Assembly (NCBI RefSeq): GCF_900215155.1
Contig: NZ_LT907980.1
Span: 1,984,001 to 2,048,000, forward strand
Direction of reading: 5' to 3'
Length of the DNA: 64,000 nucleotides
DNA from: Marinobacter sp. LV10R510-11A
GTDB lineage: Bacteria; Pseudomonadota; Gammaproteobacteria; Pseudomonadales; Oleiphilaceae
In this document: positions 51,217-55,520 of the stretch, piece after piece
How the letters are laid out: each line of letters starts with the position of its first letter
Position numbering within the stretch: the stretch's first letter is position 1
The notes under the pieces: generated by a model
What the model saw: the letters and a program-made list of their open reading frames with translations, nothing else
The model's database searches: none
Told to the model about the DNA's origin: nothing
Program-made: the position numbers and the translations under genes

Positions 51217-51948
51217 TTACGGCTGCGGTAACCAGCGATGCTGGATCAGGCGCTGCTCAACGTCTGGTGTAAGCAGCGGACCGGATATCATCTGGTCCAG
51301 CGTGTCATCCAGTACCGAATCTCCACTGGCCACTTGATAGCGATCGGCAGGAACCGTATCCGTCACTTCCAAGCGCACCGCTAAACTCCAACCATCTTTG
51401 CCGGCGTCGCTACGGCAGGCAATATTCTCAGAACTCCGAGCGTGGCCTTGCAGTCGAAACTGGCGGCAGTATTCACCTTCATGGTTCGCAAAAGTCAGCC
51501 GCGGCATCAGCAGTTCACCGCTCGCCAGAGTGTGGCTGACGCCACTGGGTGTGGTTTCCAACCCCTGCGCCACCGCACGCCAAGCTGCGTCAGTGTCGGT
51601 TGGGGATAGTGGAAGCCACTGAGCCAGTGCAAAACCGGCCACCAATGCTGCGGCAATCGCCTTACCGGTATTTGCTTGGAGCCGCTGCCATAGCGGGAAG
51701 CGAATCACGTTGTCCGGCCGCTCAGGTTCATCGTGCGTGGTTGCTAACAGCTGAGTCACCGCTTCTGGTAGAGGCCGGTCATCAATTTCGCCATAGTGAG
51801 CCTGCAGGGCCTGGTCAACCAGTGCCAGCTCACTGAGACGTGCCGCCAGTGCCGGCTCCACCGCTAGCCGATTCCGGATCTGCTGCATTTCCTCAGGCGA
51901 CAGCTCGCCGTCAAGAAAAGCAGAGAGTGTTTCATCAACGTTGGTCAT
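51217..51948 (-). CDS. Anti-sigma factor
   Basis: A 243-residue membrane protein. The N-terminal region, with DETLSAFLDGELSPEEMQQ, is the RseA-type anti-sigma domain (no zinc HxxxCxxC motif seen). One transmembrane helix lies at about 97-115 (AIAAALVAGFALAQWLPL). The periplasmic C-terminal part has two Cys residues and no recognised domain. It overlaps the sigma gene by 4 nt (ATGA), so it is made in ratio with the sigma factor and would hold it at the membrane until a signal in the envelope releases it. Confidence 0.87.
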   Translation of the reverse strand: MTNVDETLSAFLDGELSPEEMQQIRNRLAVEPALAARLSELALVDQALQAHYGEIDDRPLPEAVTQLLATTHDEPERPDNVIRFPLWQRLQANTGKAIAAALVAGFALAQWLPLSPTDTDAAWRAVAQGLETTPSGVSHTLASGELLMPRLTFANHEGEYCRQFRLQGHARSSENIACRSDAGKDGWSLAVRLEVTDTVPADRYQVASGDSVLDDTLDQMISGPLLTPDVEQRLIQHRWLPQP

Positions 51949-52436
51949 TGCTCGGTCCTCGTTGTTTCAGGTGTGAGCGCCTCGCTCAATGCGGCCCTGG
52001 CCCGGGCCAGCCGACTCATTACAGTGCCCTTGGGCACCGAAAGAATCTCCGCAACGGCTTGATACGACAGACCCCGGATTGCCACCAGCGAGATTATCTG
52101 GCGTTGATCTCCCGGCAATCGGCCCATGGCATCATCGACTCGACTAACCTCGATTTCGTTAACCACCTGACGTTCCCCGTCAACCACCTGGCCTTCACTG
52201 AGCTCTGGCTGTTCCGAAGCATCCCGACGAACCTTTCTGGCCCTGCACTCGTCTATCCACACATTCCGGCAAATCCGGAATGCCCAAGGTGTCATGTCCG
52301 CATCATCTGGGCGCGGCCGGCTCAACAGCCGCTCTACCGTATTCTGCAGCAAATCATCCGCGTCCGGCATGGAGCCGGTCAGTGAGTAGGCAAAGCGTCG
52401 TAAACTGGGCAGTAGTTGGGTGATTTCCTGTCGCAT
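51945..52436 (-). CDS. ECF RNA polymerase sigma factor
   Basis: A 163-residue extracytoplasmic-function sigma factor with region 2 (about 8-70, SLRRFAYSLTGSMPDADDLLQNTVERLL) and region 4 (about 105-155, LPGDQRQIISLVAIRGLSYQAVAEILSV). It is the first gene of an operon with its anti-sigma. Its own promoter (see 52467-52492) matches the promoter form found in front of the subtilase and the Ala-rich exported protein, so it is probably autoregulated and drives all three. Confidence 0.9.
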   Translation of the reverse strand: MRQEITQLLPSLRRFAYSLTGSMPDADDLLQNTVERLLSRPRPDDADMTPWAFRICRNVWIDECRARKVRRDASEQPELSEGQVVDGERQVVNEIEVSRVDDAMGRLPGDQRQIISLVAIRGLSYQAVAEILSVPKGTVMSRLARARAALSEALTPETTRTEQ

Positions 52437-52466: not shown

Positions 52467-52492
52467 TAACGGGTCACATCAGGGTTTATTCC
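52467..52492 (-). promoter_or_regulatory. ECF-type promoter of the sigma/anti-sigma operon
   Basis: On the minus strand GGAATAA (52492-52486), 14 nt, then CGTTA (52471-52467). It is one of three promoters in this locus with the same two blocks and identical spacing. The -35 blocks of this and the divergent promoter at 52502 form the short palindrome ATTCCCG-CTGAT-CGGGAAT. Confidence 0.8.
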
Positions 52493-52501
52493 CGCTGATC
52501 G

Positions 52502-52527
52502 GGAATTATTTTCCGACCCAGCCGTTA
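52502..52527 (+). promoter_or_regulatory. ECF-type promoter of the subtilase gene
   Basis: GGAATTA (52502-52508), 14 nt, CGTTA (52523-52527), 37 nt before the subtilase start codon. Divergent from the sigma promoter; same spacing. Confidence 0.8.
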
Positions 52528-52533
52528 TCTTGC

Positions 52534-52550
52534 ATAAAACCCGACAAATT
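52534..52550. promoter_or_regulatory. 17-bp shared element, copy 1
   Basis: ATAAAACCCGACAAATT, differing in one position from the copy at 55522-55538. It sits in the untranslated leader of the subtilase gene and 41 nt upstream of the sigma -35 box. Confidence 0.6.
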
Positions 52551-52563
52551 ATGGTTGCACACG

Positions 52564-53931
52564 ATGATACTCCGATTAAATATCCATTGGCTGATGTTCC
52601 TGACCGTTCCTGCTCTTCCCACGCTTGCCCTGGGCGCCGGCCCGGGCAACCTGCTTGATGGAAGGATTGAAGCGATCACCCAACAGGTCGAGCGCAGGGC
52701 TGAAAGGCTAATAGAGCGCAAGATCACTGAGGACGTCAAACGTCGCATTGTCGAGGCCTCTGAAATGCCGACAGACTTAGAAGCTTTACTGCCTGAGGTG
52801 CTGCCGATCAGAACCAATGACGGCGTTACCGCCTTCTTAGATGCCCGCCAGAGTGACGGTACCCGGGCAGTAGCAAAGCAATGGCTGCTGACCGTCTCTG
52901 AAGAAGAACTGGGCAAACTCCACCACCCCGACATCACGATCCTGCAGCGCCAGCAACTTAACGGGCTTGGACTCACCGTGGTGCGTTTTCGGGTGAAACC
53001 GGAGCGGGACTCCCGCGCGGCACTGCGCGAACTGCTGCCGGAACTGGCAGATCAGCTCGACCGCAATCACATCTACACTCCGCAAAGCGCCACTACTCAA
53101 GCTGACCCCCAAGCCGCCATCCCCTCTGTGCACAGTCTGTGCACGGAGCCAGTACGTGTTGGCATGGTGGATACCTTAGTCAGTAGCGAACATCCGGCAT
53201 TTACGGAGGCCCGTATCGTTCAACAGCGTTTTCTGGCGGTGGGTAACCACTCCGGCGATCTTGCCGCACCACGGGCCCACGGCACCGCCGTCGCCAGTGT
53301 GTTAGTGGGACGATCTTCGACACAAGCGGAAGCTCGTCTGCCGGGTGCCAACCTCTTTAGTGCCTCGGTGTTCTACGAGCGCTCCGCTGTGGCGTCGGGG
53401 GCGACACTCGCGCATTTACTGGAGGGCTTGAACTGGCTGACCGAGCAAAACGTTGCGGTGATAAACATCAGCCTGACCGGGCCGGATAACCGGGTGTTGG
53501 CGGCGGTGATCAGGCGCCTGCATCAGCAGGGACGGGTGCTGGTGGCCGCTGTGGGCAACGAAGGGCCCGCCGCGCCGCCACTCTACCCTGCGGCGTATGA
53601 CGGCGTGGTCGGCGTGACGGCCGTGGACAATACGCGAGCTTTGTATCGGTGGGCGAATCGGGGGCAGCAGGTGACATTCGCCGCCCGTGGTGTAGACATT
53701 ACAGTGGCACATCCAGATGGCGGCCAGGTCACGAACAGCGGCACATCCTTGGCTGCACCTGTAGTTACGGCGCTACTCGCCTGCCGCCTGCTCCGGCTGA
53801 GTCCGGAGCAGGCATTGCAGACAATGATCGACGACGCTGAAGATTTGGGCGAACCGGGCCGTGATCCAAGGTTCGGCCACGGCTTTCTGGACGACCTGTC
53901 GGATCAGCTCAAAACCCCGCCCGCAGCGTAA
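52564..53931 (+). CDS. S8 family subtilisin-like serine protease
   Basis: A 455-residue exported protease. A signal peptide (about 1-25, HWLMFLTVPALPTLALGAG) precedes a mostly helical N-terminal region of about 170 residues, then the catalytic domain with Asp203 (VGMVDT), His239 (AHGTAVASV), oxyanion Asn332 (AVGNEGPA) and Ser395 (NSGTSLAAPV). There is no autotransporter or PPC domain behind it, so it probably acts in the periplasm or outside after secretion. Start at 52564 is supported by the ECF promoter that ends at 52527. The 3' end overlaps the convergent barrel gene by 23 nt. Confidence 0.9.
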   Translation: MILRLNIHWLMFLTVPALPTLALGAGPGNLLDGRIEAITQQVERRAERLIERKITEDVKRRIVEASEMPTDLEALLPEVLPIRTNDGVTAFLDARQSDGTRAVAKQWLLTVSEEELGKLHHPDITILQRQQLNGLGLTVVRFRVKPERDSRAALRELLPELADQLDRNHIYTPQSATTQADPQAAIPSVHSLCTEPVRVGMVDTLVSSEHPAFTEARIVQQRFLAVGNHSGDLAAPRAHGTAVASVLVGRSSTQAEARLPGANLFSASVFYERSAVASGATLAHLLEGLNWLTEQNVAVINISLTGPDNRVLAAVIRRLHQQGRVLVAAVGNEGPAAPPLYPAAYDGVVGVTAVDNTRALYRWANRGQQVTFAARGVDITVAHPDGGQVTNSGTSLAAPVVTALLACRLLRLSPEQALQTMIDDAEDLGEPGRDPRFGHGFLDDLSDQLKTPPAA

Positions 53932-54877
53932 CGCCTGCCACGGTTTTATCGTAATCCGCAGACTCCACGTTCGAGGTATAGTGGCCGTAAGAAATCCGTG
54001 GCTCCAAACTCAGCACCTCGGTCAGGCCGATGCGCCAACCGGCTTCGACGGTGTAAACCCGATCTAACCGCTGATCCGAGGTACGCTCCCGTAAATCCTC
54101 GGTGAACGGGTTGTTCAGCAGTGGATCAGACGGTGCGATGCTGACTTCATCATATTCTCGGTTTTCGTAACGCCATTTCAACCGCAAGCGGTTTTCTTGT
54201 CCCGCCATCTGGAACTTTTGGGCCAGACTGACACGAACGCGAATCAGCCGATTGTCGTAAGCATCGGTGTTGGCGTCTTCCTGGTCGCCATCGACCCCGA
54301 TCAACACGTGACTGCGGGCTTCGTTAAAGAAGAAAAAGGCATCCATACTGACACCTCGAATGTCGGCATTTCGAGCATCACCCTCTTCATAATCCTTGGA
54401 TTTTTGCTGCAGACTAGCCATCACATAGACATCCTCCCCCACCAGACTACCCAGATAGACACTGGCACGCTTGAAATCGAGGAAAGGATCCGAGGCCAGT
54501 GTGGCGCGGGAATAGTGATAGCTAGTGCCGAAAGTGACCGGATCAAAATCGTAGCTCAGATCGGCAGAAGCCAAATGAATATCCTGATCAAACTCATCGT
54601 AGGTCTGATAGCGACTACCGGAAAGCAAGTAGCCCAGCGTCAAATTTAGAGCTTTGGTCGGTTTCAATATAGCTTCCAGCCCGGCATCGAACACCCAGGC
54701 TTCATCACTGGAGTCTGAAGAACGGTTCAGCTCATCTACCGTCAGGTTGCTGTCGTACTCCATTCCGCCGTCCACATGGCCGTTCAATTCGGCATGCTCC
54801 GACGCATGAAGAAGCGGTGTCGTTGCGCACAGCGCGGCCACCAGAGGCAGCCTGAAAAAGATTTTTTTTAACTTCAT
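53909..54877 (-). CDS. Outer-membrane beta-barrel protein
   Basis: A 322-residue protein with a signal peptide (LPLVAALCATTPLLHA, cleavage near residue 24) and a mature chain of alternating hydrophobic-polar strands ending in Phe (LRAGF), the pattern of an outer-membrane barrel. No recognised pore family. It lies after the Ala-rich protein gene on the same strand, behind an intrinsic terminator, so it is expressed by read-through or from a weak promoter inside that gap. The role with the subtilase is unknown. Confidence 0.75.
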   Translation of the reverse strand: MKLKKIFFRLPLVAALCATTPLLHASEHAELNGHVDGGMEYDSNLTVDELNRSSDSSDEAWVFDAGLEAILKPTKALNLTLGYLLSGSRYQTYDEFDQDIHLASADLSYDFDPVTFGTSYHYSRATLASDPFLDFKRASVYLGSLVGEDVYVMASLQQKSKDYEEGDARNADIRGVSMDAFFFFNEARSHVLIGVDGDQEDANTDAYDNRLIRVRVSLAQKFQMAGQENRLRLKWRYENREYDEVSIAPSDPLLNNPFTEDLRERTSDQRLDRVYTVEAGWRIGLTEVLSLEPRISYGHYTSNVESADYDKTVAGVTLRAGF

Positions 54878-54894
54878 GGGACATCTCCTGGCCA

Positions 54895-54923
54895 GAAAAA
54901 AGCCGGGCCCGAAGGGCCCGGCT
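54895..54923 (-). terminator. Intrinsic terminator/attenuator upstream of the barrel gene
   Basis: On the minus strand a 10-bp perfect stem (AGCCGGGCCC / GGGCCCGGCT, 3-nt loop) is followed by six T residues, 18 nt past the Ala-rich protein stop and before the barrel gene start. It should cut off most transcription from the ECF promoter. Confidence 0.9.
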
Positions 54924-54940
54924 GCCGCAATCTGGGGTGA

Positions 54941-55447
54941 TTAAAGTACACCGCCGCCGGCGGCACTTTTCACACTTCCTTTCACGGAGTTCTGGACTTC
55001 ACTTTTTACCGAATCGGAAACCGAGGTACCGACTTGCTGATTGGTTTCTACTCGGAGTTCAGTATTGCGAGTCTTGTTCATGCGTTCCTGCGCGGTTGCA
55101 CGTTTTTCAGCGGCCGTGGTGGTGGCAGCATCCGCAGCGGCGTTAGCTTTACCACGCACTTTCTCGCCCACCTCGACACCGGCGCGAACGGCTGCGTTCT
55201 GTTTCTGGCGCGCTTCACTACTAGCCGCACGGCCCTGCTCAGATGCCTCGCTGCGCGCGGCTTCGCCGTTCACACTACTTTTAGCAGAAGCTGATCCACC
55301 GCCTTGGGCAGAGACGCCATTATTAGCACTGGCGCTAGCGTTCATGTTTGCGTCGGCTTGCACATTGCTAGAACCAGAACCCTCGGCGGCAAACGCACCG
55401 GTAGAAAGGATAGAACAGATGGCAAATGTCAGAATATGCTTTTTCAT
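54941..55447 (-). CDS. Ala/Ser/Asn-rich exported protein
   Basis: A 168-residue protein with a signal peptide (KKHILTFAICSILSTGAFAAE, cleavage after AFA) and a mature chain made almost only of Ala, Ser, Asn, Gln, Lys, Glu, Gly and Val, with predicted long helices in the middle (EASEQGRAASSEARQKQNAA) and no Cys. It could be an extended or intrinsically disordered cell-surface or periplasmic protein. The start at 55447 is supported by AAGGAGG 8 nt upstream and by the ECF promoter whose -10 lies at 55495-55499, past the longer frame's start. Function unknown. Confidence 0.82.
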   Translation of the reverse strand: MKKHILTFAICSILSTGAFAAEGSGSSNVQADANMNASASANNGVSAQGGGSASAKSSVNGEAARSEASEQGRAASSEARQKQNAAVRAGVEVGEKVRGKANAAADAATTTAAEKRATAQERMNKTRNTELRVETNQQVGTSVSDSVKSEVQNSVKGSVKSAAGGGVL

Positions 55448-55494
55448 GATTTCGTCCTCCTTTGATGACCCTTTATGGGTAGTCTTCATTAGGA

Positions 55495-55520
55495 GGACGG
55501 CTCAGCTGAAAAGTTATTCC
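55495..55520 (-). promoter_or_regulatory. ECF-type promoter of the Ala-rich protein gene
   Basis: On the minus strand GGAATAA (55520-55514), 14 nt, CGTCC (55499-55495). Same blocks and spacing as the promoters at 52467 and 52502. It places the transcript start after the 55489 codon, confirming 55447 as the real start. Confidence 0.78.

Follow-up and report, generated by a model that had tools for sequence, protein, structure and literature searches.

A probable local ECF sigma factor regulon of the protease-type ECF26 kind with three matched promoters in Marinobacter

The window analyzed here, a stretch of 64,000 nucleotides from Marinobacter sp. LV10R510-11A (NCBI RefSeq assembly GCF_900215155.1, contig NZ_LT907980.1, positions 1,984,001 to 2,048,000), very probably holds a complete local regulon of an extracytoplasmic function (ECF) sigma factor of the protease-type ECF26 kind, whose three promoters appear to be read by the sigma factor encoded next to them. 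An earlier note on this DNA had proposed that the neighbouring sigma factor reads all three promoters, and comparison and analogy now support this: the promoters are conserved in 34/34 orthologous loci, the motif moves with the sigma gene, and a homologous system exists around RpoE6 of S. meliloti. The sigma and anti-sigma genes share a 4-bp overlap. The earlier note omitted a fifth gene, that of the barrel (54877-53909, minus strand), which lies downstream of the Ala-rich gene, behind a hairpin. The elements of the locus, with positions counted within the window, are as follows:

52467..52492, minus strand: putative promoter of the sigma/anti-sigma operon, GGAAT-N16-CGTT; exact match, kept in 34/34 loci
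52502..52527, plus strand: putative promoter of the subtilase gene, GGAAT-N16-CGTT, divergent; exact match, kept in 34/34 loci
55495..55520, minus strand: putative promoter of the Ala-rich gene, GGAAT-N16-CGTC; exact match, kept in 34/34 loci
51945..52436, minus strand: ECF sigma factor gene, protease-type ECF26-like, 163 residues (Pfam Sigma70_r2 and r4_2)
51217..51948, minus strand: anti-sigma factor gene, 243 residues (predicted helical domain in the cytoplasm, single membrane helix, beta domain in the periplasm)
52564..53931, plus strand: S8 subtilase gene, 455 residues (Pfam Peptidase_S8, E 5.6e-28)
54941..55447, minus strand: gene of an Ala/Ser/Gly-rich low-complexity protein, 168 residues, predicted to be exported (signal-peptide-like start; composition)
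54901..54923, minus strand: terminator-like hairpin between the Ala-rich and barrel genes (10-bp stem with nine G-C pairs, T tail)
53909..54877, minus strand: gene of a predicted 14-strand outer-membrane beta-barrel, 322 residues (Pfam SlipAM match)

The three sites lie exactly where they had been placed, at 52492-52467 and 55520-55495 on the minus strand and at 52502-52527 on the plus strand, and they do share blocks, spacing, orientation and distance to genes, with 56, 62 and 73 nt from the -35 box to the ATG of the sigma, subtilase and Ala-rich genes, respectively. All three are written here uniformly as GGAAT-N16-CGT(T/C). A search of the window with GGAATWA-N13-15-CGTYM gave three matches versus a mean of 0.16 in shuffled sequences, and none of 100 shuffles reached three. 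In the whole genome (4,436,489 bases, one contig), the strict 14-nt form occurs four times, three of these being the present promoters, and the reversed pattern occurs five times. What is distinctive is the clustering of the sites and their position before genes; the genome-wide count is unremarkable.

Sigma matches at E 4e-62 or better were found in 36 of 151 Oleiphilaceae genomes, the genome analyzed here included. Flanked loci were collected from relatives (39 loci, L031-L069; L070 is a stretch of the genome itself), and the counts that follow cover the 34 complete orthologous ones, leaving out L050, whose contig stops short of the Ala-rich gene, and the diverged modules L064-L067. The order and strand of the sigma, anti-sigma, subtilase, barrel and Ala-rich genes are kept in 34/34 loci, and the outer neighbours tested mostly differ. 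GGAAT-N16-CGT(C/T) stands upstream of all three transcription units in every locus, with a spacer that is always 16 nt, at 54-56 nt from the start of the sigma gene, 36-82 nt from that of the subtilase gene and 63-74 nt from that of the Ala-rich gene. In the window, the Ala-rich gene is taken to start at the ATG at 55447, behind AGGAGG, instead of at the longer open reading frame (ORF) start at 55489. These loci (603,357 bases) contain 105 sites, of which 102 are module promoters and three are others, exactly three sites being present in 31 loci and four in 3 loci; the reversed pattern was found twice. That the resemblance arose by chance or was driven by coding sequence is therefore of negligible probability: GGAAT and CGTY are indeed short, and the strict pattern has one further match in the genome and five in the reversed control, but the fixed spacer, the near-constant position upstream of genes and the conservation in 34/34 loci speak against chance, which was rejected by both the window shuffles and the 34-locus counts.

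The earlier note further described the -35 boxes of the divergent pair as one palindrome. The two facing GGAAT boxes are real, but the palindrome is not perfect, as its 9-base arms contain one mismatch (TTATTCCCG / CGGGAATTA). The facing boxes persist in relatives, and the bases between them are variable; the gap is 9 nt in the window and in 30/34 loci, and 10 nt in 4/34. A palindrome bound by a regulator was rejected, since conservation is limited to the facing -35 boxes. The facing promoters are perhaps too close to each other for two polymerases to act simultaneously.

The motif shows no clear spread beyond the locus. In the same genome, GGAATA-N15-CGTY matched nine times versus 12 in the reversed control, GGAATT-N15-CGTY 13 versus 19 times, and the form with a 17-nt spacer 11 versus nine times, so the regulon can be called self-contained, as it had been, as far as this was tested. 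A wider regulon under this consensus is rejected so far on the same counts. For the GGAATA-N15-CGTY scan, ORFs of at least 60 codons were sought 30-260 nt downstream of the seven matches outside the locus, and none of these matches had an ORF of at least 100 codons starting within 130 nt, the nearest one starting at 182 nt. Twelve relatives gave 39 matches, 21 of them module sites by hand count, versus 24 in the control. A possible fourth target, a similar site in G000 and G118, was dismissed on the evidence of G000, where the site lies within a long frame on the opposite strand (L072).

A genome search with the thresholds used found the barrel in all 36 genomes with the sigma factor and the Ala-rich protein in 32 of them. 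Beyond these 36, barrel matches occur in four genomes (three with a distant sigma factor, plus G085) and Ala-rich matches in three (G059, G060 and G085).

For wider comparison, contigs of named genomes were scanned, and the best 80 of 565 sigma relatives were used for the counts; by title, these loci comprise 21 from Marinobacter, 36 from other gammaproteobacteria (Alteromonas, Idiomarina, Kangiella, Cellvibrio, Microbulbifer, Alishewanella and others) and 23 from alphaproteobacteria. An anti-sigma gene is present in 78/80 loci and a subtilase relative in 77/80 (22/23 in alphaproteobacteria; in L163, the subtilase gene is not divergent). The barrel was found in 58/80 loci (Marinobacter 20/21, other gammaproteobacteria 32/36, alphaproteobacteria 6/23), and a relative of the Ala-rich protein (profile E 0.01) in 30/80 (19, 11 and none, respectively). 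Site counts in these loci are lower bounds, as the search windows miss sites where ORFs are over-long (e.g. L128, L132); with this limit, the motif precedes the sigma gene in 20/21 and the subtilase gene in 19/21 of the named Marinobacter loci, and the sigma gene in 34/36 (control 1) and the subtilase gene in 28/34 (control 0) of the other gammaproteobacterial ones, where it is also found up to 2.2 kb upstream of the barrel gene in 28/32 (control 2). The motif accompanies the sigma gene in other gammaproteobacteria, with a spacer of 16 or 17 nt, and is rearranged in alphaproteobacteria. Translation downstream of 25 sites in 23 gammaproteobacterial loci, a hand-picked subset of the sites found, yielded 22 proteins with a signal-peptide-like start and low complexity (rich in A, S, T, N or Q), most of which carry C-terminal SVxxTV-like repeats as judged by eye; the exceptions were a short ORF (L127:4424), a lipoprotein-like protein (L129:7248) and an acidic Cys-rich repeat protein (L166:2769). 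The third target is therefore conserved in kind, also where sequence similarity is weak.

Several observations weigh against reading the locus as a local regulon of the neighbouring sigma factor: (i) the 34 loci are related by descent, so that 34/34 does not stand for 34 independent events; (ii) GGAAT-N16-CGTT is intact in G085, which has the Ala-rich gene and the barrel, and in G059, which has a shortened Ala-rich gene, and no sigma ortholog was found in either genome; (iii) in L115, a named Marinobacter bin, the -35 box before the sigma gene has a one-base change; (iv) the genome contains nine genes with sigma70 region 2 (Sigma70_r2), so another ECF factor could share the sites; and (v) the roles of the subtilase, the Ala-rich protein and the barrel are suggested by co-occurrence and a family match. 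Point (ii) indicates that the promoter can outlive the sigma gene, and we took both genomes as cases of recent sigma loss; G059 has a 51-codon ORF matching the end of the anti-sigma factor. Points (ii) and (iv), as well as the cross-activation described for S. meliloti ECF26 factors (PMC6180224, PMC10880074), would fit real ECF promoters whose main reader is a different ECF sigma factor, or several such factors of overlapping specificity. We consider this improbable, because the sites cluster at this sigma gene with no clear excess elsewhere in the genome, one of them is the promoter of the sigma gene itself, and diverged sigma copies tend to another spacer before the sigma gene (17 nt in L064, L066 and L067, but 16 nt in L065).

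Related loci show various arrangements. Two remnant loci, L219 (8181-8788) and L221 (7883-8531), hold the Ala-rich gene with an intact promoter and no sigma gene, L221 also having a short anti-sigma-like ORF. G105 has an additional Ala-rich copy and G060 a solitary one, both with a GGAAC-N17-CGT(T/C) promoter instead, perhaps read by another ECF factor; this second type of Ala-rich gene, with the GGAAC-N17-CGT form, was seen at L040 10676-11255, several kb from the module, and at L220 7977-8557, with no sigma gene seen alongside. The diverged modules L066 and L067 have further spacer-17 sites before a porin-like gene and an alpha/beta-hydrolase-like gene, and G093 carries both the orthologous and the diverged module type.

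The alphaproteobacterial loci differ in where the promoter lies. A site at the sigma/anti-sigma junction occurs in 0/55 gammaproteobacterial loci and in 16/23 alphaproteobacterial ones, where a GGAAT promoter sits at the 3' end of the sigma gene and ahead of the anti-sigma gene (L169, L170, L174-L178, L181-L189); a site before the sigma gene is present in 8/22 alphaproteobacterial loci. Nine of the 16 loci with a junction site were included in a tree, and all nine group with S. meliloti RpoE6 in a single supported clade (97/88). This clade of RpoE6 and alphaproteobacterial protease-type sequences has the sulfite-type sequences as its sister (97/95), and the gammaproteobacterial sequences lie outside; as the root is arbitrary, the tree is compatible with a placement of the latter either inside ECF26 or beside it. 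The gammaproteobacterial wiring seems to activate itself, whereas the alphaproteobacterial one would mainly raise its own brake. Other features were noticed in further loci: in L159 (7223), L160 (4086) and L161 (7224), bins labelled Hellea or Rhizobiaceae, GGAATAA-N17-CGTC follows the anti-sigma gene and precedes a gene whose product has a signal peptide and an HEVAH motif and may be a zinc peptidase; in L193 (6513-7267, Rhizobium plasmid), the anti-sigma match is split across two adjacent ORFs; and in L191 (5983-12295, Sulfitobacter plasmid), two ECF sigma/anti-sigma pairs flank sulfite oxidase and cytochrome c genes.

The anti-sigma factor matches Pfam zf-HC2 with 22.4 bits (cut-off 22.2) and RseA_N below the cut-off. 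Its AlphaFold2 model (predicted local distance difference test score 78) shows helices on the cytoplasmic side, a membrane helix of low confidence and a beta domain in the periplasm; a fold search gave no PDB match at E 0.001 or better, with weak matches to AlgU-MucA. In the model, Cys161 and Cys178 lie in the strands 160-167 and 172-179 of one hairpin, whose register ends both sum to 339. The two cysteines should therefore face each other, and a cross-strand disulfide between them is likely. Both residues are invariant in 78/78 aligned anti-sigma factors, among which some species occur more than once, and 19 of 27 rows inspected contain no other cysteine. The motif is missing from the sulfite-linked Sulfitobacter anti-sigma factors examined (L191, L192), which weakens the idea that the disulfide is a general ECF26 sulfite sensor and argues for the cysteine pair as a feature of the protease type, whether structural or redox-sensing.

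The subtilase has a signal-peptide-like start and a propeptide-like N-terminal part; Asp203, His239, Ser395, Asn332, Cys193 and Cys407 are invariant in 17/17 sequences, and the catalytic residues are in place. Phage-defence models indicated subtilase and IetS similarity and nothing else. It is conceivable, though we think it less probable than not by a good distance, that this enzyme is mainly regulatory and cleaves the periplasmic domain of the anti-sigma factor, as DegS does with RseA, which would create a positive proteolytic loop and leave the other exported genes secondary. The constancy of the subtilase beside the sigma gene fits this idea, the more so in alphaproteobacteria, where the barrel occurs in six loci and the Ala-rich protein in none; however, co-occurrence does not show a substrate, and the first trigger cannot be a protein whose synthesis itself depends on sigma release.

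The Ala-rich protein has no Pfam or NCBIfam match at E 1, and its C-terminus carries a conserved SVSDSVKSEV-type repeat in the alignment. The barrel gene is presumed to be the second gene of the Ala-rich transcript. The 5 kb of the locus contain 11 terminator-like sites versus 5.1 in shuffles, and the hairpin at 54901-54923, which has the longest stem among them, likely attenuates the barrel gene, so that the small exported protein would be made in excess of the barrel. The barrel gene runs towards the subtilase gene, and the two share 23 bp at their ends (53909-53931).

The barrel matches Pfam SlipAM (DUF560, PF04575) with 28.4 bits (cut-off 22), as do 12 of 17 orthologs at E 0.01. In structure comparison, the channels CymA and OmpG match it best, and a PDB sequence search with it returned one chance-level match. 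It resembles type 11 secretion (Slam / DUF560) in having 14 strands, as that family does according to PMC8406197, and in that its gene adjoins one for a predicted exported protein. It is unlike that system in that the barrel has no N-terminal periplasmic tetratricopeptide repeat (TPR) part (the first strand is at residue 29, with no TPR match) and the exported protein is of low complexity, not a known cargo type. One could imagine a dedicated gammaproteobacterial surface-polymer module, in which a cross-strand Cys161-Cys178 disulfide serves as sensor or clamp, its opening lays the anti-sigma factor open to proteolysis aided by the subtilase, and the released sigma factor makes a tetrad-repeat protein that is matured by the subtilase and exported or anchored by the SlipAM-like barrel. 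We hold this to be unlikely, even after the SlipAM family match raised our estimate slightly; if true, type 11 secretion would gain a new relative that lacks the TPR part and has a sigma loop of its own.

These findings led us to the following model of the local regulon, in which the sigma dependence of the promoters, a periplasmic trigger and a joint envelope function of the products are what we infer. The anti-sigma factor would keep the sigma factor bound at the inner membrane until it is itself inactivated by an event in the periplasm. Once free, the sigma factor would read (i) its own operon, giving positive autoregulation with the co-made anti-sigma factor as a brake, (ii) the divergent gene of the secreted subtilase and (iii) the Ala-rich gene, the barrel gene being reached by read-through past the hairpin. 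The products would serve one envelope or surface function, with the subtilase trimming the exported protein or the anti-sigma factor. The set of sigma factor and promoters is compact, its spacer is fixed at 16 nt, and other genomic sites show no clear excess; the module may therefore be useful for orthogonal promoters and for the annotation of ECF26 targets. A prediction that follows is that this sigma family controls a low-complexity exported protein in several marine gammaproteobacteria, for which the neighbouring SlipAM-like barrel may serve as the exporter. Furthermore, one sigma family with two feedback layouts, before the sigma gene in gammaproteobacteria and before the anti-sigma gene in an alphaproteobacterial clade, can be compared directly, and the invariant cysteine pair allows a redox or thiol signal to be tested.

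Among known systems, E. coli RpoE has a promoter sequence that differs from GGAAT-N16-CGT(T/C). The RpoE/RseA/DegS system is similar in its membrane anti-sigma factor, in view of the sub-threshold RseA_N match, and in the involvement of an envelope protease (DegS; PMC8103513). It is unlike the present one in that the Marinobacter protease belongs to family S8, not HtrA, and is itself a predicted target. RpoE1 and RpoE4 of S. meliloti, which respond to sulfite, belong to the same sigma group, ECF26, and GGAAT / CGTC promoters are given for RpoE4 targets (PMC6527743, PMC3511301); unlike here, their targets are sulfite oxidation genes.

The closest likeness is to RpoE6, EcfR6 and SMa0142 of S. 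meliloti: the sigma factors are 40% identical, the divergent subtilases are homologous (34% identity, E 1e-50), and the anti-sigma factor matches EcfR6 by profile (E 2e-17, with no pairwise BLAST hit), two EcfR6 cysteines aligning with Cys161 and Cys178. According to PMC6180224, RpoE6 drives the divergent serine protease gene from a mapped GGAAT-N16-CGTT promoter, SMa0142 went up when RpoE6 was over-expressed (log fold change 4.7), and a GGAAT promoter lies inside rpoE6 before ecfR6, the rpoE6 promoter having RpoD/RpoH-like motifs; its authors also argue for autogenous control of rpoE6. We located the published promoters in pSymA, each with a spacer of 16: that of the protease (L190:18934, minus strand), the rpoE6-internal one before ecfR6 (19455, plus strand) and that of SMa0148 (21729, minus strand), the first two reading GGAAT-N16-CGTT. 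In contrast to this internal site, the Marinobacter promoter precedes the sigma gene. No match to the Ala-rich protein or the barrel was found in the 40 kb of pSymA searched.

The same source (PMC6180224) gives a cross-species ECF26 consensus of GGAATA at -35 and GT at -10, and names a divergent serine protease as one widely conserved ECF26 context. The locus fits (i) the consensus, with GGAATT in the subtilase promoter, (ii) the anti-sigma trait, as a downstream gene encodes an N-terminal anti-sigma domain, one transmembrane helix (low-confidence model) and a periplasmic domain, and (iii) the divergent serine protease trait, seen in 34/34 loci, with a subtilase in 77/80 wider ones. We recognised no paper on this gammaproteobacterial module in the literature searched, and an ECF classification may already list it. 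From these sequence comparisons, the description that fits the locus best is that of a gammaproteobacterial ECF26-like regulon of the protease type. To the known class it adds a conserved third promoter, which stands before the genes of an exported low-complexity protein and a barrel, as well as a difference in wiring and an invariant periplasmic cysteine pair in the anti-sigma factor.

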